Assembly (NCBI RefSeq): GCF_002584535.1
Contig: NZ_NUOT01000069.1
Location: forward strand, 30,201 to 94,200
DNA: 64,000 bases
DNA from: Bacillus cereus
GTDB taxonomy: Bacteria; Bacillota; Bacilli; Bacillales; Bacillaceae_G
Reading direction: 5' to 3'
The notes under the pieces were generated by a model. It was not told the DNA's origin. It saw nothing but the letters and a program-made list of their open reading frames with translations, and made no database searches. The first letter of the stretch is position 1. Each line of letters starts with the position of its first letter. Positions 7,166 through 54,564 of this stretch are shown here, piece after piece. The position numbers and the translations under genes are program-made.

Positions 7166-9526
7166 CTATTGAACCTTTTCATTTTCTAACATATACGTAT
7201 CTGTGGATACCGACTGCAAGAACGCATTCATTTCCCCTACAGAATAAATATATAACTCATGCATTGCACGTGTACAAGCAGTATAAAATAATTTCCGTTC
7301 ACTTTCTCGGCTATATTTTTTCTTTGATGCATCATAGATGATAACCGCATCAAACTCTACCCCTTTCGATAAATACGATGGGATAATCAAAATACCTGTA
7401 TCAAACGAACTCGTTTCTTTCTTAATGAGACGAACTTGTAATGATGTTTGAAGTGCAAGATAAGCTTCTTTACTTTCCTCAGCTGTTTTACAAATAACCG
7501 CAATTGTCTTATGACCTCTTTGCTTCAACTGCTCGATTTGATCCACAATCTTTTTATGATGCGCTTTTCCTTCTTTCACTTCCGTTATACTTGGTTGTTT
7601 ACCGTCACGCTGAAACGGTTCAATTTCATGCCCATCTGTAATTAACTGCCTTGTAAATTCAATGATTTGTTTTGTAGAGCGATAACTACGCGTAAGTACG
7701 ATTCTTTCACTCAGCTCTTCTCCATACAACGTACTTAACTGTGAAAATTCATTCTCTGATGCATGTTCATAAATGGTCTGATTAAAATCACCTAGTATTG
7801 TCATTTTTGTATGAGGGAATATTCGTTTTAAGAATGCATATTGAAATGCAGAATAATCCTGCGCTTCATCAATAAATATGTGCTGCACAGATGTATTTCT
7901 TTGCAACTCTTCCAGTTGATCTTTTAAATATAAATAAGGTGTTGCATCTTCATATGACATATAAAAATCTTGTATTTTTTCTATTGTTTCTTTACATATT
8001 TCATTCCATCTTTGCGGTAATTTACTTTCCTCTACAAGTTGCTTAGCAAACTGCGGATCTTTAAATATTTGTATATAAATTGCTGATGTATGAATAAATT
8101 GTAATTTTTTCACACGTCTTCGGAGTGGTTTAAAATGTTCTTTCACAACGATAGCCGCCAACATATTTTGTTCTCGTTCAAATTCATCAAACGCATCCTG
8201 GGAATATTCTTGCCTTTGCTGTAATTTCTGATGAACTTTTGCATATGTTTCCTTATCTAATAACTGTACTTCTTCTTCCACCCAAAGTTTTTTTCTCTCT
8301 ATTTTTTCTTGTTCTTTCAGCTCTTTTAGTAGCCATTCAGAAATTAATTTTATTCGATTTGGAATCCGTATTGAAGAATCAAATTCATAAAACCGTTCTT
8401 TTATTTGTTCTTTGGAGATTAATACTTCTCCTCTAAATTTAATATCTTTAAATAACATACCTTCTCGTTTTAAGTAAGATATATACCGATCTACTACTTC
8501 AATAAAATCAGAACTTGCTTTATATCTAATTCCTTCTAATCGTGTTTCATAACTCTTTTCTTCCATTCTTGTCAGTACATATTCCATTTGTGTAAATGGA
8601 TCTTCCAATTCAAACTTCTTATCAACATGACGCTCTAAGTATTCTTGGAATGTCGTTTGTTTCATATTGTCCTCACCAAGTTCCGGTAGCACTGTGGAAA
8701 CATAACTATTAAACATCGAGTTGGGAGAAAAAAGAACGATTTGATCAGCGTGTAGAGAATCCCGATATCGATATAATAAATACGCGACACGCTGAAGTGC
8801 TGCCGATGTTTTACCGCTTCCCGCAGCTCCTTGCACAACAAGCAAACGACTTTTTTCATTCCGGATAATTTGGTTTTGTTCCTTTTGAATTGTTGAAACA
8901 ATGCTTTTCATTTGTGTATTAGCGTTATTCCCTAATACTTCTTGCAGTAATTTATCACCAATCGTAACACCTGTATCAAACATACTTACAATTTGGCCAT
9001 TCCGAATAACATATTGTCTTTTTAATGTCATTTCACCCGAAATCGTATCATTAGGTGCTTCGTATTTTGCTCTTCCTACAGAATAGTCATAATACAAACT
9101 TGATATAGGGGCTCGCCAATCATATACAAGAAATTGTTCTGTATTTTCATCGTAGAATGAGTGAACACCAAGATAAATAGCATCTTCACTTTTTTCACCG
9201 TCTTCTAAGAAATCTATCCTTCCAAAGTATGGGGACTGTTGTAATCTTTGTAGTCCTTTTAGTTTTTGATAAGCATGGCGATGACTTTGCTCTCGTTCGG
9301 ATAATAACTCTGCTTGTTGTTTAATACTCGCTGCCGTTTCAATAGCCTCTTCTGTATTATCAACATTCACTGTTACATCGTCCCAAAAATGTTTTCGAAT
9401 CTGGACAACATCTTTCATTGCTGCACTCGTATATCGCTCTAATGTATCAATATGATTTTTTATCTTTCCAACTACTTCTTTCAGACGATGTTGTTCCTGT
9501 TTCCATTCTTGATTTGTTTTTTCCAT
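7166..9526 (-). CDS. helD: HelD-type RNA polymerase recycling helicase
   Basis: This 786-residue SF1 (UvrD/Rep-like) ATPase has an N-terminal coiled coil (QEWKQEQHRLKEVVG region), the HelD mark DWRAPISSLYYD, Walker A VVQGAAGSGKTSAALQR, Walker B HIFIDEAQDYSAFQ and C-terminal helicase motifs (LTRSYRSTKQI). HelD proteins insert into stalled RNA polymerase and release it from DNA; relatives in actinobacteria give rifamycin tolerance. The start at 9526 is chosen for the AAGGAGTGG site. The region upstream carries divergent promoter elements and a 12-base inverted repeat. Length fits the family. Confidence 0.9.
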   Translation of the reverse strand: MEKTNQEWKQEQHRLKEVVGKIKNHIDTLERYTSAAMKDVVQIRKHFWDDVTVNVDNTEEAIETAASIKQQAELLSEREQSHRHAYQKLKGLQRLQQSPYFGRIDFLEDGEKSEDAIYLGVHSFYDENTEQFLVYDWRAPISSLYYDYSVGRAKYEAPNDTISGEMTLKRQYVIRNGQIVSMFDTGVTIGDKLLQEVLGNNANTQMKSIVSTIQKEQNQIIRNEKSRLLVVQGAAGSGKTSAALQRVAYLLYRYRDSLHADQIVLFSPNSMFNSYVSTVLPELGEDNMKQTTFQEYLERHVDKKFELEDPFTQMEYVLTRMEEKSYETRLEGIRYKASSDFIEVVDRYISYLKREGMLFKDIKFRGEVLISKEQIKERFYEFDSSIRIPNRIKLISEWLLKELKEQEKIERKKLWVEEEVQLLDKETYAKVHQKLQQRQEYSQDAFDEFEREQNMLAAIVVKEHFKPLRRRVKKLQFIHTSAIYIQIFKDPQFAKQLVEESKLPQRWNEICKETIEKIQDFYMSYEDATPYLYLKDQLEELQRNTSVQHIFIDEAQDYSAFQYAFLKRIFPHTKMTILGDFNQTIYEHASENEFSQLSTLYGEELSERIVLTRSYRSTKQIIEFTRQLITDGHEIEPFQRDGKQPSITEVKEGKAHHKKIVDQIEQLKQRGHKTIAVICKTAEESKEAYLALQTSLQVRLIKKETSSFDTGILIIPSYLSKGVEFDAVIIYDASKKKYSRESERKLFYTACTRAMHELYIYSVGEMNAFLQSVSTDTYMLENEKVQ

Positions 9527-9558
9527 ATCGCCACTCCTTATCAACTAATCGTTCTGAT

Positions 9559-9671
9559 GCTCATTGTTTAATGCTATAACAAATTCAATAAAAAGTTTGA
9601 CAAACAAGTAATCGATTTGTTATAATTAAATTGGATAATTATTGAGTTTTATATAAAAATAAACAATGAGC
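9559..9671. promoter_or_regulatory. Promoter region flanked by 12-bp inverted repeat
   Basis: GCTCATTGTTTA (9559-9570) and its exact complement (9660-9671) flank an 89-base core. The core holds a plus-strand sigma-A-like promoter, TTGACA (9597-9602), 18 bases, TATAAT (9621-9626). The same -35 area reads TTGTCA on the minus strand, facing helD. The arms could be operator half-sites or ends of a small mobile repeat. Confidence 0.55.
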
Positions 9672-9741
9672 GTTTTTCCATTTTAACACATATATATGAA
9701 AAATCAATAAAAAGGAGATACAAATTTGTATCTCCTTTTTA
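9633..9741 (+). ncRNA. Possible small RNA from the helD upstream region
   Basis: A consensus promoter ends at 9626 and a strong terminator hairpin with 16-base perfect arms (9709-9740, T run) follows. The about 105-base span between has no ORF longer than six codons. The hairpin also serves the convergent gene at 9739, so it does not prove a separate RNA. This is an inference from promoter plus terminator spacing. Confidence 0.35.
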
Positions 9742-10245
9742 TTTTGGAAGTTCCACTTCAAATTCTATTATTGATTCTCCATCTTCCCCAATACGTTCAA
9801 CACTTACTTTTTCAATTACACATTTTAAGTTGATACTTAAATCCGGTAGCTCCTCTGCTATTTCTTTTGCTATTTTTTCATTTTCTTTTCTCCCGACCGT
9901 CACATGCGGTATATAAGAAATATCGCTTCGGAAAAATGCCGCTAAAGGCCCTTTATATAACTTTTCATGTAATGTACTTACTTTTTCACTTCCCTTTTCA
10001 GTAAGTAAAAACAAGTACTCTCCTTCATTACTAATTCGATCTGTAAACTCGATTGCTATCGAATCAACCCCTTCTAGACTTTCAATAATGTGCTTTTTAA
10101 GTTCATCGTTAGTAACCATGCTTTCAAAAGGGAATACAAGTGTAATATGAGGATTAATCAGTCCGAATAAAGGATCATGTTTTTTTCTAACCACTTCAAT
10201 TTCATCTATTTGCGCCTCATTTAGAAAAAGTAAAATAGTACGCAT
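9739..10245 (-). CDS. 2H phosphoesterase / 2'-5' RNA ligase family protein
   Basis: The 168-residue protein has two H-x-T motifs, HITLVFPF near residue 34 and HVTVGR near residue 114, as expected for the two-histidine phosphoesterase fold (LigT/YjcG-like). Such enzymes act on cyclic phosphodiester ends of RNA or nucleotides; the substrate here is unknown. GAAGGAGGAA precedes the ATG. The stop overlaps a strong palindromic terminator, so it is probably the last gene of a short unit with the CcdC-like gene upstream. Confidence 0.8.
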   Translation of the reverse strand: MRTILLFLNEAQIDEIEVVRKKHDPLFGLINPHITLVFPFESMVTNDELKKHIIESLEGVDSIAIEFTDRISNEGEYLFLLTEKGSEKVSTLHEKLYKGPLAAFFRSDISYIPHVTVGRKENEKIAKEIAEELPDLSINLKCVIEKVSVERIGEDGESIIEFEVELPK

Positions 10246-10283
10246 TTTCTATTCCTCCTTCAACAAAACCAAAAACAGCAATT

Positions 10284-10751
10284 TTATGAAACTGCACGAA
10301 ATACTTTTCTAAACTTTATATAACAAGCAATTCTCCAAGGGATGATATAAGAAGCAGCAACAACATAAAACAATAAGCCTATTGTTCGCTGATCCAAATC
10401 GATTATATATTTCCTAGAAACATACCTTAAAACTACAATCCCTATAAAAGTAATGAGAAATGCTACACTTTTTTTCGTATATATATTCCCATCTTCTCTT
10501 CTCTCATAGTTTGTAAGTATAATAAGCGGAAGCGCAAAAAGAATCCCAAATAATATCGCAAAACTAATGTATAATACAGCTGGATGAATAGGACCAAAAA
10601 ACATTAAAATTCCTGGTGATAAAAAAAGTAGTGGTAATAAAATTCGCTTTCCATTTCCCTTTATCGGTTTATGCATTGATCGATAACGTCTCCTTAAAAT
10701 TAACATTGCAATACATAAAAATGAGGTTAATAGTGAAGAAGTATCCTCCAT
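10284..10751 (-). CDS. CcdC-like membrane protein (second copy)
   Basis: A 155-residue protein with four or five hydrophobic segments. It shares with the protein at 5522 the basic motif RRRYRSMHKPIKGNGKRILLP and the C-terminal IPWRIACYIKFRKVF. It is therefore a diverged paralogue in the CcdC/DUF1453 family. The role is unknown; no thioredoxin-like or cytochrome maturation genes are next to it. AGAAGGGA precedes the ATG. It lies between the ABC permease gene (10793) and the phosphoesterase gene (9739), all on the same strand. Confidence 0.7.
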   Translation of the reverse strand: MEDTSSLLTSFLCIAMLILRRRYRSMHKPIKGNGKRILLPLLFLSPGILMFFGPIHPAVLYISFAILFGILFALPLIILTNYERREDGNIYTKKSVAFLITFIGIVVLRYVSRKYIIDLDQRTIGLLFYVVAASYIIPWRIACYIKFRKVFRAVS

Positions 10752-10792
10752 ACATTGTCCCTTCTCTCCTAAAATATTTATCTAACAATCAT

Positions 10793-11464
10793 TTATATCA
10801 TTTGCTCAAAGGAAACTTTACGAATAAGTATACTACTAACTATGATATAGACTACAGTTAATCCCATTGAAATCATAATAAAATATGGTACGTCTATTAA
10901 GGTTTCACTATTTATAAACATGAAACTTCTTATCCCTACTTCTCCATAGAGCACACTCGTTACCCCTAAGAAAATCGTCCCCCCTACAGCAAGACCAATC
11001 CACTGAAATCGTTGTTTAAAAATAACTACTACTTGAAAAAAACTCGCTATTGTAACGTAGAATAAAAACTGTGCAAAAAATCCCCCTAGTGAATGCCCCC
11101 CTATACGAGCGCTTTCTGAACTATATACTATATTCTGTAAAAAAATCAATTGAAGAGATGAAAATACTGCGGCTTGTAATGTTATATAACAAACTGCCCC
11201 AACAAAAAATTGTAGTCTTGTTACCCCAAACGAAACAACTAAACGAAATACTTCATCCTGTATAATAAAAGTGCTTACTACTATAAAAAATGTAATTGCA
11301 ATCGAAGGATTATTTAAAATATCCTGTAAAAATCCTACTTTTATTCCGTTTAAATCCGCTGCACTCGTTGTTCCTTTTATAAGTAACGCCACAATCCAAA
11401 ATATAAGAATCGCTTTGTAATGAAATTTCATATGTAACTTCAATTGTTTCATTAGCATCATCAT
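10793..11464 (-). CDS. ABC transporter membrane subunit
   Basis: The 223-residue protein has about six hydrophobic segments and sits directly after an ABC ATPase gene with overlapping stop and start, so it is the likely permease partner. It resembles the membrane components of the YtrA-regulated type of exporters. Substrate is unknown; linked GntR regulators of this class often respond to cell-wall antibiotics. GAGGTG lies before the clustered ATG codons. The exact start among ATGATGATG and the later ATG at 11452 is uncertain. Confidence 0.75.
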   Translation of the reverse strand: MMMLMKQLKLHMKFHYKAILIFWIVALLIKGTTSAADLNGIKVGFLQDILNNPSIAITFFIVVSTFIIQDEVFRLVVSFGVTRLQFFVGAVCYITLQAAVFSSLQLIFLQNIVYSSESARIGGHSLGGFFAQFLFYVTIASFFQVVVIFKQRFQWIGLAVGGTIFLGVTSVLYGEVGIRSFMFINSETLIDVPYFIMISMGLTVVYIIVSSILIRKVSFEQMI

Positions 11465-12339
11465 TTCACCTCATCATCTGTTATATAAATAAATAGTTTT
11501 TGTAGTGTTACGCTATCAATTTCTAATCCTTCTTTTTCAATAAATTGATAATCTTTAGTAGAAAACCCCTCCCATATAACAGCAATCTCCTTATTTCCAT
11601 ATACCTCTCGATGTACAACGTTTTTATTTATTAGAAATTCATCCACTTTATCTTTTCGGCCTGATATGCAATAGGCTTCCTGTAATAAATCTTCAACGGC
11701 TGATTGAACAACTACTTCTCCTCCTTTCAAAATCAGCACATCTTCCACAATATGCGCTACTTCTTCTACTAAGTGCGTTGATAAAATAATTGTTCGAGGG
11801 TGATTACCATAGTCTTCTAACAACATATTGTAAAATAATTCTCGGTGCGCCGCATCTAAACCGGTAGTCGGCTCATCAAAAATTGTAATAGGTGCCCTAC
11901 TTACTAATCCCTTAATAATTCCAACAACATTCTGCATACCATGCGATAATTTATGATATTTTTCTTGTACATTAAGCCCAAATTTCCTCGTAAGTTCTTC
12001 AGCATAGGCTTGGTCCCAATTTTTATAAAACATGTTACATAGATTAAAAATCTCTTTCACCTTATAGTTTAAATAAACTTCTTCTTTCACTTTTACAAAA
12101 CAAATATTTTGCAGCGCTTTCCTATTTTCAAAAACATTTTCATCAAATACGGATACACTTCCACTACTTGAAACGATCTGTCCAGAAAGAAGATGTAATA
12201 ATGTCGTTTTCCCCGCCCCATTTCTACCGAGCAAACCGTATATTTTATGTTTTTCCATCGAAATCGTTACTGCATTTACAGCCGCTTTTCCCCTATATTT
12301 TTTCGATAAGTCTTTTGTTTCGAATGCAATCATGGTCAT
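11461..12339 (-). CDS. ABC transporter ATP-binding protein
   Basis: A 292-residue single nucleotide-binding domain with Walker A GLLGRNGAGKTTLLHL near residue 35, a slightly degenerate signature (KLSHGMQNVVGI), Walker B PITIFDEPTTGLD and an H-loop in LSTHLVEEV. The C-terminal 80 residues are an accessory domain. It forms an operon with the GntR regulator (ATGA overlap upstream) and the permease (overlap downstream). Two ATGs fit the AAGGAGGGGG site, at 12339 and 12333; the first allows translational coupling. Confidence 0.88.
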   Translation of the reverse strand: MTMIAFETKDLSKKYRGKAAVNAVTISMEKHKIYGLLGRNGAGKTTLLHLLSGQIVSSSGSVSVFDENVFENRKALQNICFVKVKEEVYLNYKVKEIFNLCNMFYKNWDQAYAEELTRKFGLNVQEKYHKLSHGMQNVVGIIKGLVSRAPITIFDEPTTGLDAAHRELFYNMLLEDYGNHPRTIILSTHLVEEVAHIVEDVLILKGGEVVVQSAVEDLLQEAYCISGRKDKVDEFLINKNVVHREVYGNKEIAVIWEGFSTKDYQFIEKEGLEIDSVTLQKLFIYITDDEVK

Positions 12340-36154: not shown

Positions 36155-36691
36155 ATGAGTTCTTATTATGACAAATTAAATAGATTGAATGGAAATCGAG
36201 ATTCCCTTTCTCAAAGAACAAATGGCGACCTTAGAGGAGAGAGTTGTGAATCTACAAGGCCATCAGCATTTAGAGCAGTCAACATATCTTCACTTCAACA
36301 AATACCTGCTAATACTACTGTTAAAGTTTTATATCCTAACATTCAATTTGATTTGGCCAATGAATTCAATTCAGCTGCCTCCATGTTCATCCCTAACACA
36401 AGGGGTGTATACTCATTGATTGCCAGCCTTCTTTTTTCACCTAATAATTGTAATTCATCTTACAGAGGAAGAATAAACATTCAAGTAAATGGTCATGAAA
36501 TAGCTGCTGATAATGATTTCTTTGGAGCAAATATCCAAATTAAAAATATTATATCCGTTTCTACCATTGCTCAATTAAAATGCGAGGATATTGTTGAGGT
36601 ATTTTTTCTCTCTAACGTAGCTGGTACAATTAATATATTTAATAGCATTTCACGTTTTGAAGGAGCTAGATTTCCCTCTCCAGCAACCTAA
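36155..36691 (+). CDS. C1q/TNF-like jelly-roll protein
   Basis: The 178-residue product has a polar N-terminus (residues 1-35) and a beta-rich domain of about 140 residues: SAFRAVNISSLQQIPANTTV, GVYSLIASLLFSP, GRINIQVNGHEIAADNDFFG and ISVSTIAQLKCEDIVEVFFL. This resembles the C1q-like domains of exosporium proteins such as the BclA C-terminus, but no collagen-like GXX repeats are present. It may be a spore-surface protein. The AAGGGAAG site is about 12 bases from the ATG. Terminator follows. Confidence 0.6.
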   Translation: MSSYYDKLNRLNGNRDSLSQRTNGDLRGESCESTRPSAFRAVNISSLQQIPANTTVKVLYPNIQFDLANEFNSAASMFIPNTRGVYSLIASLLFSPNNCNSSYRGRINIQVNGHEIAADNDFFGANIQIKNIISVSTIAQLKCEDIVEVFFLSNVAGTINIFNSISRFEGARFPSPAT

Positions 36692-41471: not shown

Positions 41472-41722
41472 GTACAAAAAAGTCCCTACTGAGCAATCAG
41501 TAGGGACGATTATTATCGCGGTACCACCCTAATTGTAGACTACCTTCGTCTACCTCTTATCATTTTTAACGATTTATAAAACCGTCTTTCCCTTCGTAAA
41601 GACCATGATCTTTACTACGAAAAAGATGCTCTAGGGCTGTAATTCATGCTTATCTTTGTACTGATTCTCAGCGTCCATCAGCTCTCTATAAACAGGGAGA
41701 TAAGCACTACTGTTTCCCTTTC
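41472..41722 (-). promoter_or_regulatory. Tyrosine T-box leader 1 (upstream of aroC)
   Basis: It carries the T-box AGGGTGGTACCGCG (minus strand; 41517-41530), a terminator stem GTCCCTACTGA... (41482-41507) and T run. In Stem I, GAATTACAGCCC places UAC at 41639-41641 as the specifier, a tyrosine codon. It sits between the DAHP synthase gene and aroC, so it controls the distal four genes separately. Confidence 0.9.
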
Positions 41723-41742
41723 AACGCATATTCAATATGAAA

Positions 41743-42934: not shown

Positions 42935-43185
42935 CAAAAAATCCCTACTGATCTACTCAGTAGGGACGATATTTATCGCGGTACCACCCTAGTTGTAGAC
43001 TACTTTCGTCTACCTCTCTTCACTGTTAACGATCGTTTGACCGTCTTTCCCTTCATAAAGACTATCATCTTTACTACGAAAAAGATGCTCCAGGACTGTA
43101 ATTCGCACTTGTTTTTGTACTGGTTCACACCAACCACCAGCTCTCTGTTACAGGGAAACAACTACTACTTCTTTTCCTTTCACTG
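42935..43185 (-). promoter_or_regulatory. Tyrosine T-box leader 2 (proximal of tandem pair)
   Basis: T-box AGGGTGGTACCGCG at 42977-42990, terminator stem around 42941-42967 with T6, Stem I apical loop AGAGAGCTGGTGGTTGG. Specifier in GAATTACAGTCC is UAC (43098-43100), tyrosine. It immediately precedes the DAHP synthase gene. Confidence 0.9.
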
Positions 43186-43222
43186 CATGTAATATTCAAT
43201 TTTCAAGTTGGACCACAAAAAT

Positions 43223-43475
43223 ACAAAAAGTCCCTACTGATCCAATCAGTAGGGACGATATTTATCGCGGTACCACCCTAGTTGTAGACTACTTTCATCT
43301 ACCTCTCTTCACTGTTAACGATCATTTGACCGCTTTTCCTTCATAAAGAACATATATCTTTACTCGAAAAAGATGCTCCAAGACTGTAATTCATGAGTAT
43401 CCCTGTACTGATTCACACCAACCATCAGCTCTCTGTTACAGTAAGATCTTCACTACTGTGATCTCTTCATTGCAC
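43223..43475 (-). promoter_or_regulatory. Tyrosine T-box leader 3 (distal of tandem pair)
   Basis: T-box at 43266-43279, terminator stem 43229-43256, specifier in GAATTACAGTCT is UAC (43086-linked leader is separate; here 43386-43388). It is the first leader transcribed. It resembles leader 2 closely, so the pair probably arose by tandem duplication. Confidence 0.9.
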
Positions 43476-43519
43476 TTTGTTTATTCAAATGTTTGTGAAA
43501 TTGAATAAGTATGATTCGT

Positions 43520-43549
43520 ATTATAGAATGCTTTTTAAAATACTGTCAA
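43520..43549 (-). promoter_or_regulatory. Promoter of the aro operon
   Basis: Minus strand TTGACA (43549-43544), 18 bases, TATAAT (43525-43520). The consensus elements lie about 45 bases before T-box 3 and just after the SIR2 gene stop. Confidence 0.75.
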
Positions 43550-43593
43550 TACTTTTTTAGTTATTTTTTTAAAATTCCACTCTTTCCCCACTA

Positions 43594-46500
43594 TCAATCT
43601 TGTAAATTTGTCATCACAAGTCCAATACGAATCATTTCGTTTTGAATAGATATTAATAATTGTTTCTCCACTTGGTAATCTGTTAACAATTGTTTAATCT
43701 CAATGATTTCATTTTCAAAAGAATTTGCCTCATGAAGGTTTTGCAGTAGCGAAAAAAATAATTCACCATAGGTTTCCACATGATATTTCATGTTATTTTT
43801 CTTTTCCAAAATAGCCAAAAATAGTTGTTTCATTTCCGCTTGGTCGTAACGTTCTGATATGGGAGAGAAACGAGTAAGAATTGTTTGTATTCCGTTTTCT
43901 GCAACTTCATCCATATATAATACAAAACGTAAAAACATGACATATTCTCTACCAGTTACAGAACTCATTTTTGGACGTTCCATTAAAAAACCAGCTAACC
44001 AAGCCTCCCAAAATTTTTGTTGTTCTCTTACGCTTAATGTTTTCACATAATAACATAAGTATTCCATAAACTTAATTTTGTCATTTTCCGTTTCCTGTAT
44101 AAAAAGTGGATATAACCAATCGGCTCGTTGATCCCAATATAATACACATTTAATAAAAACAAAGCTGAGCCACTTTAAAAATACTTTCTTTGTATGTGGA
44201 TGTAATACATATAAATGTTCGACTGCATATTCAATATATCGCTTTATCTCTGTAAATAGCGGTAAATTTATTTGTGTATAGCAAAGGCCTGACCATGCAT
44301 ATTTTATTACCCTATCTTGTTTTTTTAAGTCGAGATAAGGTAGCAAATTTTTTCTACACCATTGTTTCTCAATATGGTACAAAAATGTTATGTCTGCCGT
44401 TAATCGTGCAAGCATGAAATGTGTACTCTGTGACAACGTTCGCATTTGTTCTTCAAATAAAAACAAGTATTCGTGAATGTTCCGATCGTATAAGTGATCA
44501 TATGCTAGCAGCTTTAATAATACTGACGTCATCTTTCCAATAGGATGTTGAATAGACTCATTATAAAAGTCATGTTCCCCTATCTTGAAATTCGGATCAC
44601 TTTTCATTACTTGGGGAAATAAAGAAAAGGCAAAACGTTTCACAACACGTATACTATCCTCTTGAAATTCTTCTAATCGATTGCTGATTTCATAAAGAAA
44701 ACTACTAATTAACCATTGAAAAGATGTATTCCTTACAAATTGTTGTAAGAGTGGAATAATTTTTTGTATCTGTTGATTAGTAAGCTTTCGATTATTCCCC
44801 CATGCCCTAATACAGACAAACCATACTTCATTACTTACCATACTTTCCCCTACTAATTGATAAGCAAGCGAAATACTCCACTCTGTATTCAATTTACATG
44901 CTTTTGATAACATTTCTAAAAAATGACGCTGTTCAAAAATACCGTCATGAGAAAAGAGCTTAACTTGTTTCATCATTTCATGCTCTTTCAATTGCAATAA
45001 CCCATCAGCAGTTACGTTACATGTAATGCTTTGTACAGCATCCTCTACTCGCTTTTCACCATAACTCTCTGGAGAAAAATGCGGATGTTTTTGTTTCATT
45101 TTTTTATATGCTTGTACTGTACAATTACCATTCGGATCACATGTGTATAGTAAATCCATAACAAGACAAGCATCAAAAGCTCTCTCATTAACAAGGTGTT
45201 TCATCACCCTTTGTAACACCTCTTGTTTACTTTGTTCCGAAGCACAGGAATAATGCTTCTTTAAAAAATTAAATACTTCATGCCTATATGTAACATGTAA
45301 AAGTAAATTTTGTTCTAGCAACCATTTGACTTTTTCATCGTCAGTTGCAAATGAATTTTCACTCATTGCCTCTACCGCAATTCGTTTTTGTAATATACTA
45401 TCTGTTTCAATCATTTGAGCGATATAGTAGTTTGCCTTTCTCTTATGATTCGCACATAAATATGCGAGGGATTCTTTTACAATACGAATTAAAAATGTAA
45501 AATCTTTTGGCTGTAAATCATGTTCAGAAAACTCGACTCTATTATATGTCACACCGTCCTTTTTCTCTAATGCAGCCTGTCTTAAAAATAACATTTGGAT
45601 TTTTTCTAATCCCATAACCATAATTTGGTCAGCAAAATATGCGATATGCGGTTTCATTCTCTCATCCCAAATCTGTTGTACAAATGAAAATACAGGAACT
45701 GGCAAACGACTTGTTTCCTCTAATTCAATCGAATCCTGCATATCGTGTTCCCATCTTCTGACACGTTTTAATTTAATCTTTCCATCCAAAATAAACGCCA
45801 ACAATAAGATGAAAATTTCTTTATGTTCAGGGAAAGAACATCTATGTAACAAATGTGAAACAAGTTCTATAGAACTGCTATTTTTTTCTGCTGTTTCTAG
45901 TAAAAGTAATGTCCATTTTGCAAATAATAGCGGTTCAACCTGCTCTTTTGTTTCGTTTAAATACGTACAAATGGTTCGCCATAACAAAGGAGAAATTTTT
46001 GAGTGATTTTTATAAATAAGCTGAAATAATTCTTTTTGATGACTAAAAAGAAATTGTTCGACAAGCCAATCGGCCAGCAATTCATCCTCTTCATTATGAA
46101 TGGTGGAAAGTAAAAATAAATTTTGGAGTTTCCCTTCTGCCTCTAACCATTCTACCCACTCGTAATCACGAGCAAATTCTATAAAATACCGGAGTGTTTC
46201 GATCTTTTTTACTGATTGCTTTATATATGATAATTGCTCTTGTTCAACTGATGGTGGAACTGTCACAATATCACGAATCCGCATTCTTTTTGTAATATAG
46301 TTATCCCCCATTAATTCAGCCCAGCGCCTCACAGCTTGCACAAGTGCCTGATGATTGTTCACCTTATTTGGATAAACAATGGGGCGTACTCCCAAATGCT
46401 CCCAATGATATGTATTATCTCCTTGAGCAACAAATGCATAACGTCTTGTACTCGGTGGTAAACCTGTTGCTAAATATTTCATAACAGGATCATTATGGCT

Positions 46501-47088
46501 ATATCCGATGAATAGTACCGTATAATTCGAAAATAAATCAACTAAAAATCTTCTTGCCCATCCCTCTGTTAAGTAAGCCCTTCCAAAATCACCGTCCGTT
46601 AATATTAAATTTTCTTTCTCCTGCTCTATATTGCCATGTATATATGCTAAACCTTTGAACGCTCTACCTGTTGGAAGTGCAGGTGCGTAATATATATTAA
46701 TATCTCGATTCATTTGTCTAATTACACTTGTAAAATGTTGATCAAAATTTGTAGTGACGATGCGAACATCAATGTCATCTGAAAAAAGCCGCGGAATGGC
46801 ATAGTGTAATGGATTCGGCTTTGAATCTTTCACATCAACAAGATCTTGTGCAACTTGATGTACATCTTTCGTCTTCGCAACTTTTCCAAGATAATAATCA
46901 TGCGGTTCGTTTTTTTCACGCTTTTCAACGTATAAAGTTTCCGCAATTTCATCAACTAAATCATCGAAATTTGGTAAGTTTGATTTCCCTTTCATAGAAA
47001 CCCCTGCTCCGACAAATAATACAAGCCTTCCTTGCTCAAGATTATCAAATAGTTCATCTGGAATTTCTACTTCTGAAGTAATCCACAT
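43594..47088 (-). CDS. Large SIR2-domain protein, defence-associated sirtuin candidate
   Basis: The 1164-residue protein starts with a SIR2-like domain (about 1-275): FVGAGVS at 26-31, TTNFD at 112-116, YIHG with His151, and LFIGYSHNDPVM at 192-203. Asn114 and His151 correspond to the NAD-cleaving pair of DSR/ThsA sirtuins. The remaining about 880 residues are helical, without membrane segments or known catalytic motifs; a DUF4020-like region is possible. Relatives kill or arrest phage-infected cells by depleting NAD+. GGGGGGATCC precedes the ATG. It is a single gene with its own strand neighbours unrelated. Confidence 0.85.
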   Translation of the reverse strand: MWITSEVEIPDELFDNLEQGRLVLFVGAGVSMKGKSNLPNFDDLVDEIAETLYVEKREKNEPHDYYLGKVAKTKDVHQVAQDLVDVKDSKPNPLHYAIPRLFSDDIDVRIVTTNFDQHFTSVIRQMNRDINIYYAPALPTGRAFKGLAYIHGNIEQEKENLILTDGDFGRAYLTEGWARRFLVDLFSNYTVLFIGYSHNDPVMKYLATGLPPSTRRYAFVAQGDNTYHWEHLGVRPIVYPNKVNNHQALVQAVRRWAELMGDNYITKRMRIRDIVTVPPSVEQEQLSYIKQSVKKIETLRYFIEFARDYEWVEWLEAEGKLQNLFLLSTIHNEEDELLADWLVEQFLFSHQKELFQLIYKNHSKISPLLWRTICTYLNETKEQVEPLLFAKWTLLLLETAEKNSSSIELVSHLLHRCSFPEHKEIFILLLAFILDGKIKLKRVRRWEHDMQDSIELEETSRLPVPVFSFVQQIWDERMKPHIAYFADQIMVMGLEKIQMLFLRQAALEKKDGVTYNRVEFSEHDLQPKDFTFLIRIVKESLAYLCANHKRKANYYIAQMIETDSILQKRIAVEAMSENSFATDDEKVKWLLEQNLLLHVTYRHEVFNFLKKHYSCASEQSKQEVLQRVMKHLVNERAFDACLVMDLLYTCDPNGNCTVQAYKKMKQKHPHFSPESYGEKRVEDAVQSITCNVTADGLLQLKEHEMMKQVKLFSHDGIFEQRHFLEMLSKACKLNTEWSISLAYQLVGESMVSNEVWFVCIRAWGNNRKLTNQQIQKIIPLLQQFVRNTSFQWLISSFLYEISNRLEEFQEDSIRVVKRFAFSLFPQVMKSDPNFKIGEHDFYNESIQHPIGKMTSVLLKLLAYDHLYDRNIHEYLFLFEEQMRTLSQSTHFMLARLTADITFLYHIEKQWCRKNLLPYLDLKKQDRVIKYAWSGLCYTQINLPLFTEIKRYIEYAVEHLYVLHPHTKKVFLKWLSFVFIKCVLYWDQRADWLYPLFIQETENDKIKFMEYLCYYVKTLSVREQQKFWEAWLAGFLMERPKMSSVTGREYVMFLRFVLYMDEVAENGIQTILTRFSPISERYDQAEMKQLFLAILEKKNNMKYHVETYGELFFSLLQNLHEANSFENEIIEIKQLLTDYQVEKQLLISIQNEMIRIGLVMTNLQD

Positions 47089-47275
47089 CTGGATCCCCCC
47101 TTACCTAAAAATGTCATATACTCTCATTTTACTATAACATTTTTTGTTTATTTTTTTAATATTTCGACAAGATGTTTAACATGAAAAAAATTTTTTTACA
47201 CTCATGTACATACATAAGGAATGTATGAACTTCTTGTTTTATACCAAAACTATGTAAAAACAGGAGGTGTGCACT

Positions 47276-53811: not shown

Positions 53812-54564
53812 TTAATGACAATACCGGTCTACTAACCCCTTTAGATGTTCTATGTTTTCTGAAGATGAATTTTCTGATAATCTAGCCCCAGCAATAATAG
53901 GAGCCCACTCCAAAACTTCATTCCTTGATAAGCCAGTATTATTGCAATATATACGTAAATACATTTCAGCTAACTCGACTGAAGACTGCGCATACAATAA
54001 ATATGTTCTGTATACATCTGCACGAATATCTCCCGCGCTAGCATCTACCCAATCAATAATTTTCACGTTATCATGACTCATGATCAAATTAAATGGATGA
54101 AAATCTCCATGACATAGCCTAGGTTCAATTACCATTGAATCCAATTTTCTTAACAATTTATCCTTTAGTTCCTCATCTAGATTGTATACTGATTCAATCT
54201 GGCGATGTAGCTTTGCTGACATCGGTTCAAGTAAATCCGAATTAACAACAACAGCATGCATCTTTTGTTGTATATCGACACAAATACTTATGTAATGCTC
54301 CGCCCGTTCCATATGATTTATCAAAAGTTCACCAACTGTTTGCCCTTTTACATATTCCATTATAATTGCTTGCCTACCCTTTATTTCTGTAACTTCAAAT
54401 ACCTGAGGGACGTTAAGTCCACATGAATAAGCGTATTCTTGTTTCTTTGCCTCGTATAAAGATTCTGTATTTGGAAAGTGTTTTTTAAACACTTTTACAA
54501 TTTTATGATCACAAAGATATATCTTTGCTGTATTTCCAATAGCTATTGGCTTACCTAGGTTCAA
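53812..54564 (-). CDS. Aminoglycoside phosphotransferase (APH) family kinase
   Basis: The 250-residue protein kinase-like fold has the catalytic loop LCHGDFHPFNLIM and the metal motif IIDWVDASAGDI, plus an N-lobe IVKVFKKHF with the ATP lysine. Family members phosphorylate antibiotics, choline or homoserine; the substrate cannot be told. The start is TTG after AAGGAGAG. It stands alone with a terminator downstream. Confidence 0.8.
   Translation of the reverse strand: MNLGKPIAIGNTAKIYLCDHKIVKVFKKHFPNTESLYEAKKQEYAYSCGLNVPQVFEVTEIKGRQAIIMEYVKGQTVGELLINHMERAEHYISICVDIQQKMHAVVVNSDLLEPMSAKLHRQIESVYNLDEELKDKLLRKLDSMVIEPRLCHGDFHPFNLIMSHDNVKIIDWVDASAGDIRADVYRTYLLYAQSSVELAEMYLRIYCNNTGLSRNEVLEWAPIIAGARLSENSSSENIEHLKGLVDRYCH

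Follow-up and report, generated by a model that had tools for sequence, protein, structure and literature searches.

A single long gene between aro genes and yndM

The question raised by this locus is what is achieved by a solitary gene of 1164 codons that encodes a SIR2 domain followed by a long helical body, and that lies between a metabolic operon and yndM. We examined it in the context of the window, the whole 64,000-nucleotide stretch of DNA analysed. One uninterrupted ORF on the minus strand fills positions 43594-47088, with an ATG start, 1164 codons and one stop. Among 200 mononucleotide shuffles of these 3495 bp no open run exceeded 182 codons, the longest obtained, which excludes a chance origin of the ORF. 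The start codon is supported by a ribosome-binding-like site close upstream. Because the promoter scan gave a count (23) close to expectation (22.8), we assign the gene no promoter of its own.

43594..47088, minus strand: gene for the 1164-residue protein with SIR2, helical body and DUF4020 (ORF, translation, Pfam)
47095..47102, minus strand: ribosome-binding-like site AAGGGGGG, ending 6 bases before the ATG (sequence)

Downstream of the gene lies an aro-type operon (gene names read by eye) with DAHP synthase as its first member; on the opposite flank is a gene of the DUF2512 (YndM) type. Neither a defence gene nor a mobility gene was found among the 10 ORFs scanned with Pfam (nine on the yndM side and one at 36155), in agreement with a sequence-only reading of the locus, which had described the gene as standing alone. 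Three T-box leaders surround the DAHP synthase gene, and two of these lie directly downstream of the SIR2/DUF4020 gene.

43520..43549, minus strand: promoter-like site TTGACA-18-TATAAT (12/12) ahead of the aro genes, roughly 45 bp past the stop codon (context)
43248..43479, minus strand: T-box leader ahead of the DAHP synthase gene, the first of two in tandem (context)
42959..43192, minus strand: T-box leader, the second of the two (context)
43557..47220, no strand: segment without DNA counterpart in the loci fetched from genome G012

Judged by DAHP synthase, G012 is the closest genome, and the closest record with a species name is Ectobacillus antri. The window and the G012 DNA are similar up to 43556 on the aro side and again from 47221, shortly ahead of yndM; no exact empty site is drawn, since in G012 the aro and yndM genes sit on different contigs. 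The GC and GC3 of the SIR2/DUF4020 gene are ordinary for the window, and horizontal transfer is unsupported by base composition. Together with the lack of defence and mobility genes among the 10 ORFs, this leaves recent acquisition unsupported.

Domains, active site and predicted fold

Two Pfam families match the protein above their cut-offs: SIR2_2 (PF13289) at residues 109-224 (71 bits, cut-off 24.5) and DUF4020 (PF13212) at residues 977-1152 (190.3 bits, cut-off 22.7, E 3e-56). The SIR2 motifs are GAGVS at residues 27-31, TTNFD at 112-116 (N114) and YIHG at 149-152 (H151). Across 19 aligned proteins, this one included, G27, G29, S31, T112, T113, N114, D116, H151 and G152 are invariant.

The structure was modelled with AlphaFold2 from a 9-row alignment, replacing a single-sequence structure that was unusable (pLDDT 44). 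The model (mean pLDDT 71.6, pTM 0.44) is alpha/beta to about residue 260 and almost all helix over residues 283-1163, apart from a pair of short strands at 438-458 in a stretch of low confidence; the arrangement of the domains in this model is uncertain.

46294..47088, minus strand: N-terminal SIR2 domain, residues 1-265 (Pfam, AlphaFold2 model, Foldseek)
46417-46764, minus strand: SIR2_2 Pfam core, residues 109-224 (Pfam)
46747..46749, minus strand: codon of Asn114 (TTNFD), predicted NAD+-cleaving residue (identical in 19/19 aligned proteins)
46636..46638, minus strand: codon of His151 (YIHG), predicted catalytic residue (identical in 19/19 aligned proteins)
44161..46242, minus strand: helical body, residues 283-976, predicted to serve in sensing and oligomerisation (model; DSR1-type homology)
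43633..44160, minus strand: DUF4020 (PF13212), residues 977-1152, C-terminal end of the helical body (Pfam)

These results bear out the sequence-only reading, which had delimited the same 1164-residue ORF (leaving its strand unstated), placed the three motifs with Asn114 and His151 where they are found, predicted about 880 helical residues after the SIR2 domain and named the two Pfam families that the HMM search recovered.

Relationship to the defence-associated sirtuins DSR1 and DSR2

A PADLOC scan placed Dsr1 first (E 3e-53), the best stretch being 6-320 in a model of 1248 positions. Dsr1 (NF041818) was also the top match among NCBIfam models, at 244.8 bits and far below the equivalog cut-off of 1400, a value missed by all eight relatives scanned (seven score 38-340 bits, and the eighth gives no match). 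By this measure the protein lies outside DSR1 as NCBI narrowly defines that family.

Homology to DSR1-type proteins extends along the entire protein. When six proteins of the branch to which it belongs were compared by hhalign with seven DSR1-type proteins, one of them annotated Dsr1, the two profiles matched with probability 100 and E 6e-87 over 1117 columns (residues 3-1157 against 4-1226). In a full-length tree of 16 rows, rooted on a single long row (G490), the protein falls outside the DSR1-type clade (nine rows, support 100/100; two of the nine annotated Dsr1), in a separate branch of six rows with support 98/98. This tree alone was used because a SIR2-only tree gave little resolution, the placement of DSR1 included. 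The six-row branch, mostly recognisable by DUF4020, is sister to the DSR1-type proteins in this comparison.

Structural comparison against DSR proteins, a check proposed by the sequence-only reading, pointed in the same direction at the level of domains. Foldseek ranks 1-30 were all DSR2 chains (E 1e-8 to 3e-6), with cryo-EM DSR2 first, and the N-terminal domain gave target-normalised TM scores of 0.66-0.70 against SIR2-only DSR2 chains. The full-length rmsd for ranks 1-30 was 26-37 A, which together with the pTM of 0.44 means that the domain folds match DSR2, whereas the overall shape does not. HEAT-repeat proteins, importins for example, also match the model, and the viral structure library yielded nothing at E 0.001 or better. 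By sequence, neither phmmer nor a profile returned a DSR2 chain at E up to 1 from the PDB, in which such chains are present. The substitutions N133A and H171A are reported to abolish NAD+ cleavage by DSR2, and the same source describes DSR1 as conserving both residues (PMC11087589).

Distribution and genomic context of relatives

The occurrence of this type of gene in the genomes searched is sporadic. Matches were found in none of four genomes of the genus and, in the family of Ectobacillus antri, in none of 19 (both searches run without a positive control), and DUF4020 occurs in one of 397 genomes of the order. Among 398 genomes of the phylum, 16 contain any match to a three-row profile and six of these, judged by match lengths, represent the branch described above. 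Scans of genome contigs and viral contigs with the bare protein returned no close relatives; the three-row profile found nothing in viral contigs, nor did tblastn in 50,697 phage records. Wider profiles reached 21 and 22 viral loci, 23 of them distinct.

Several relatives reside beside defence genes or on mobile elements. Those of G662 and G624 lie behind BrxA-PglZ-BrxHI (BREX), with PglXI also identified in G662, and count as one context because the two are closely related (SIR2 end branches of about 0.05). In a lambda-type viral contig a relative sits between Q/RusA/NinB and O/P phage genes; on a Rhodococcus plasmid another is 1.7 kb from an IS1634 transposase; a further one seems to share an operon with a helicase-nuclease pair. 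PADLOC models match three of five tested neighbours in G484 and none of three in G613, while two of six in G662 are without a match; the G550 neighbourhood was read by eye only. The relatives in G613 and G708 are split in two pieces, so that loss may be common in the family, and one relative (G407/L134) keeps the body with a possible nuclease in place of SIR2.

Function of the SIR2/DUF4020 protein

The explanation we favor, with a probability of about 0.78, is that the gene encodes a stand-alone defence-associated sirtuin: a SIR2 NAD+ hydrolase restrained by a helical sensor body and triggered by phage. The SIR2 domain would hydrolyse NAD+ with Asn114 and His151 as catalytic residues, while the roughly 880 mostly helical residues would serve as sensor and oligomerisation scaffold and hold SIR2 inactive. 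The helical body would bind a phage product, which the case of DSR2 suggests to be a late structural protein like the tail tube; the SIR2 pocket would then open, NAD+ would be depleted and phage production would stop, with or without death of the cell.

NADase activity, anti-phage role and autoinhibition are properties that we infer; with 21% identity to an E. coli Dsr1, function is transferred over a long distance. Even so, a single-gene DSR-like defence NADase, as the sequence-only reading had proposed, is well supported by comparison of sequences and model: Dsr1 leads in both PADLOC and NCBIfam (in the latter far below the cut-off), DSR1-type homology spans the full length, DSR2 is the best structural match, and the catalytic residues are invariant. 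The absence of zinc-site cysteines, the sporadic presence and the defence or mobile contexts of several relatives add to this. The earlier reading had also named a pattern that would refute it, a gene conserved at this site in all B. cereus-group genomes with Asn or His lost in many. A partial check against this pattern found neither residue lost in any of the 19 aligned proteins, and no match in 19 genomes of the family of Ectobacillus antri, in a search that had no positive control.

A less likely possibility is that the same domain logic serves a different end, the protein being an NAD+-cleaving suicide or interference protein directed at plasmids, conjugation or another mobile element, or a SIR2 enzyme that makes a signal. 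NADase partners of short Argonautes are reported to act against mobile genetic elements (PMC10474274), and the plasmid-borne relative and the one with the helicase-nuclease pair would fit such a target. However, the nearest characterised relatives, DSR1 by full-length sequence and DSR2 by fold, are described as anti-phage (PMC10973363), and others lie behind BREX genes and within the lambda-type phage contig.

That the gene is a passenger, no longer working and retained by chance, is improbable: the two-piece relatives and the lack of defence neighbours among the 10 ORFs scanned are compatible with decay, but the 1164-codon frame, the ribosome-binding-like site and the active site are intact and DUF4020 still scores 190 bits.

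Classical sirtuins are marked by a zinc-binding four-cysteine module. A protein deacylase of this kind, with a regulatory or metabolic role as its place beside the aro genes might suggest, is rejected as very improbable, for although PRK00481 of NCBIfam gives a trace (E 6.4e-5, 22.6 bits, far below the cut-off of 221) and the gene lies head-to-tail upstream of the aro genes, residues 1-300 contain no cysteine and hence no such module, SIR2_2 is the sole sirtuin family that Pfam detects at E up to 1, a consensus promoter and T-boxes situated after the SIR2/DUF4020 gene belong to the aro genes themselves, and the 19 family genomes searched gave no match.

Comparison with known systems

In Thoeris, ThsA combines SIR2 with a SLOG domain and adjoins the TIR protein ThsB. 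Our protein shares the SIR2 NADase domain with ThsA (E 1.4e-11 to a PADLOC model), but is more than twice as long and is without the second ThsA domain (SLOG/STALD); we rejected ThsA, as Pfam finds no SLOG family and no TIR protein is encoded among the 10 ORFs scanned. Avs5 (SIR2-STAND) was likewise rejected: Pfam finds no NTPase family and the modelled body is mostly helical.

DSR2 of Bacillus subtilis, a NADase activated by tail tube, resembles the protein in joining SIR2 to a long helical C-terminal domain, in its catalytic Asn and His, and as its best fold match, at domain level only. It differs in length, the protein studied here being 159 residues longer than the 1005-residue DSR2 (PMC10973363), and in the lack of any sequence match at E up to 1.

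Closer in sequence is DSR1, likewise a single gene for about 1200 residues, with identical catalytic motifs in an N-terminal SIR2 domain and a body homologous across its whole length. The differences are the low identity to the E. coli protein, a score far from the NF041818 equivalog cut-off, the separate and supported branch, and the presence of DUF4020, a family without a match in the E. coli, Rhizobium, L137 and L154 proteins. Two relatives share the architecture in other hosts and among other neighbours: that of G387 (L103) at 30% identity over its length and that of the lambda-type contig L136 at 25%, with DUF4020 scores borderline to the cut-off of 22.7 (19.3 bits for L103, 25 in another scan, and 26.9 bits for L136).

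Neither DUF4020 nor PF13212 is named in the open-access papers searched, a body of literature that mostly excludes subscription papers. The comparison suggests for DUF4020 the role of C-terminal end of the sensor body in a DSR1-like anti-phage sirtuin, and its branch adds a lineage for which no experimental record was found. More speculatively, and in our view doubtfully, this branch may be a third type of single-gene defence sirtuin that senses another phage component, its body an exchangeable sensor module joined in the course of evolution to one killing domain or another, an idea suggested by the relative with a possible nuclease in place of SIR2. The gene is a distant cousin of a known defence family, and extends a known theme rather than opening a new one.

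The gene and its product

The SIR2-domain gene that the sequence-only reading had placed at window positions 43594-47088 is confirmed by its reading frame, motifs and Pfam domains. The minus strand carries here a single, uninterrupted frame of 1164 codons (the longest open run in 200 shuffles of the stretch was 182 codons), with a ribosome-binding-like AAGGGGGG immediately 5' of its ATG. GAGVS, TTNFD and YIHG lie as claimed, at residues 27-31, 112-116 and 149-152, and Pfam places SIR2_2 at 109-224 and DUF4020 at 977-1152, the latter with 190 bits. An AlphaFold2 model based on a 9-row alignment (mean pLDDT 71.6, pTM 0.44; residues 435-530 poorly predicted and the last ~75 weak) predicts an alpha/beta N-terminal domain and, from 283 to 1163, a body that is almost all helical.

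In an alignment of 19 proteins, the window protein among them, residues G27, G29, S31, T112, T113, N114, D116, H151, G152, Y172, G195 and Y196 are identical throughout. Residues 1-300 of the window protein hold no cysteine, and it therefore lacks the four-cysteine zinc module that is a mark of deacylase sirtuins. Excerpts of PMC11087589 describe the DSR2 counterparts of N114 and H151, Asn133 and His171, as required for NAD+ cleavage and as conserved in DSR1.

Genomic setting

Some 45 bp beyond the end of the gene is a perfect match to a sigma-70-type promoter, which precedes genes that by eye we take to be of aro type: DAHP synthase and then, on the same strand, AroC, HisC, TyrA and AroA types. 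The minus strand shows no terminator-like site in the interval from the gene to the aro promoter, so that transcription may run on from the gene into the T-box region. The other flank holds a DUF2512 (YndM-type) gene pointing away from the gene and, beyond it, isochorismatase, acetyltransferase, DUF4440, PLD, APH-type phosphotransferase, glyoxalase and PPDK-type genes (Pfam).

43248-43479, minus strand: T-box leader, member of a tandem pair, between the promoter and the DAHP synthase gene
42959-43192, minus strand: T-box leader, member of the same pair, between the promoter and the DAHP synthase gene
41499-41733, minus strand: third T-box leader, between the DAHP synthase and AroC-type genes
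53812-54564: APH-type phosphotransferase gene (PF01636)

With two T-boxes in tandem, the aro genes may respond to two different tRNAs, or show a steeper response to a single one. Among 10 nearby ORFs scanned there were no recognised defence or mobility genes; the ORF at 36155 was without any match.

The nearest genome by DAHP synthase is G012 (92% to the window's enzyme); the closest named record among the matches listed is Ectobacillus antri (86%, from exact peptide patterns). G012 gave no match to the window protein. Its two main aro loci are unlike each other: L095 has a tandem pair of T-boxes with its DAHP synthase and AroC-type genes, and L096 adds genes of TyrA and AroA type to these and has three T-boxes in the window's arrangement. 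DNA similarity to both ends at window position 43556, just past the aro promoter, and the next sizeable ORF on that side of L095, a 215-aa frame running the other way, is unrelated. Because the YndM-type gene of G012 lies on a different contig from the aro loci, this genome supplies no exact empty site.

Distribution of relatives

Searches run without a positive control gave no match to the window protein in 10 genomes reached via DAHP synthase matches or in 4 genomes of the genus, and none to a six-row profile in 19 genomes of the family; these sets overlap. DUF4020 occurred in one of 397 genomes of the order, G387, and in none of 14 control genomes. The G387 protein (1176 aa) matches window protein residues 1-1157 at 29.5%.

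Across the phylum, a three-row profile matched in 16 of 398 genomes (E 0.001 or better). Six of these (G662, G484, G708, G613, G624 and G550) were assigned to the window branch by match length; the relatives in G708 and G613 are each in two pieces, that in G624 is cut by a contig end and that in G550 is interrupted by N. In the remaining 10 the match was shorter and fell on other SIR2 proteins, except in G407, where it fell on a DSR1-type body. A profile of the body only, built with G662, G407 and G490 and so recovering these three among its own matches, hit 8 of the 398: five of the six window-branch genomes (not G624), G490 and G407 with DSR1-type bodies, and G655 with a 62-codon fragment. 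The two window-branch relatives in pieces, at loci L130 (7736-11307) and L128 (8080-11789), suggest loss or draft-assembly errors.

Plasmid records matched in 60 of 72,556 cases, the best being a Rhodococcus ruber protein, and none of the 60 covered 80% of the query or more. Phage records yielded nothing (0 of 50,697). Matches were found at 23 viral-contig loci, among them L136, over 13-1038, and L159, where a shorter protein is matched weakly.

Gene neighbourhoods of relatives

The relative in G662 stands 136 bp behind BrxA (22 bp with the longest frame), preceded on the same strand by PglZ, BrxHI and PglXI, and four of six tested neighbours match PADLOC. G624, a close relative, shares the order of BrxA, PglZ and BrxHI, all three tested genes matching. 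In G484 a gene that matches the PADLOC candidate PDC-M11B lies 55 bp away from the relative, and three of five tested neighbours match some PADLOC model. The count is two of three in G708, both in part only, and none of three in G613; the surroundings in G550 were read by eye.

On L136, a lambda-type phage contig, a full-length relative (7965-11486) runs against the direction of most neighbours. One of its flanks holds the genes for anti-terminator Q, RusA and NinB, the other P-/O-like replication and repressor-like genes. The Rhodococcus relative is plasmid-borne, and upstream of it, at 1.7 kb, is an IS1634 transposase. In G387 the closest full-length relative follows, at 91 bp, a UvrD/PD-(D/E)XK gene and its PD-(D/E)XK partner (locus L103, 1796-7826). 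A separate 1220-codon frame of G387, as long as an AddA, matches this UvrD helicase-nuclease at 26-33%; the pair at L103 thus looks accessory, and this apparent operon could be a helicase-nuclease-sirtuin defence unit.

A 1208-aa protein of G407 (locus L134, 5955-9581) has a DSR1-type helical body (PADLOC PDLC04166, 1e-51) without SIR2. Its N-terminus weakly matches the predicted pPIWI-associated nuclease PF18165 (22.3 bits, where the cut-off is 26.3), and it is possible that the killing domain has been exchanged on the same sensor body.

Relation to DSR1 and DSR2

The best PADLOC match of the window protein is Dsr1 (3e-53). Against the NCBI Dsr1 model it scores 244.8 bits and misses the cut-off of 1400, as do all eight relatives scanned (seven at 38-340 bits, one without a match). 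A profile of six window-branch proteins, compared with seven DSR1-type proteins, one of them annotated Dsr1, aligned over 1117 columns (residues 3-1157 against 4-1226, E 6e-87). It follows that DUF4020 forms the C-terminal end of a body that DSR1 has as well. Among the proteins scanned it is recognisable only in the window branch: above cut-off in the window protein, L136, L127, L128 and L130. It is borderline in L103 (19.3 bits in one scan, 25 in another) and was not found at loci L129, L105, L106, L107, L137, L154, L133 and L134. In a full-length tree of 16 rows, rooted on G490 and with three rows on long branches, the window protein groups with that of G387 (99/99) within a six-row branch (98/98). 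Nine DSR1-type rows, of which two carry the annotation Dsr1, stand apart from it (100/100).

The top 30 hits of a Foldseek search of the PDB with the model of the window protein were all DSR2 chains (E 1e-8 to 3e-6), followed by ThsA, KomC and unrelated HEAT-repeat proteins. SIR2-only DSR2 chains gave a target-normalised TM of ~0.7; full-length superposition on DSR2 was poor (rmsd 26-37 A).

Proposed function

DSR-like defence, as the sequence-only reading had proposed, is the best explanation of the window protein, which, as far as can be judged, works like a DSR protein. Parts of PMC10973363 and PMC11087589 relate that DSR2 takes up a phage tail tube protein on its helical part and that the SIR2 pocket then opens. 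By analogy, the helical body of the window protein would keep its SIR2 domain inactive as long as no phage product is bound; once one is, NAD+ would be destroyed. Since DSR1, according to a section of one review (PMC10952713), inhibits phage without killing the cell, cell death is not to be assumed.

DSR2 matches the model of the window protein in fold, at the level of domains, and is not detectable from the latter by sequence. DSR1 has a body homologous to that of the window protein over its length; because the window protein scores below the Dsr1 equivalog cut-off and falls outside the DSR1-type branch, we file it as a sister branch of DSR1, and not as DSR1 itself.
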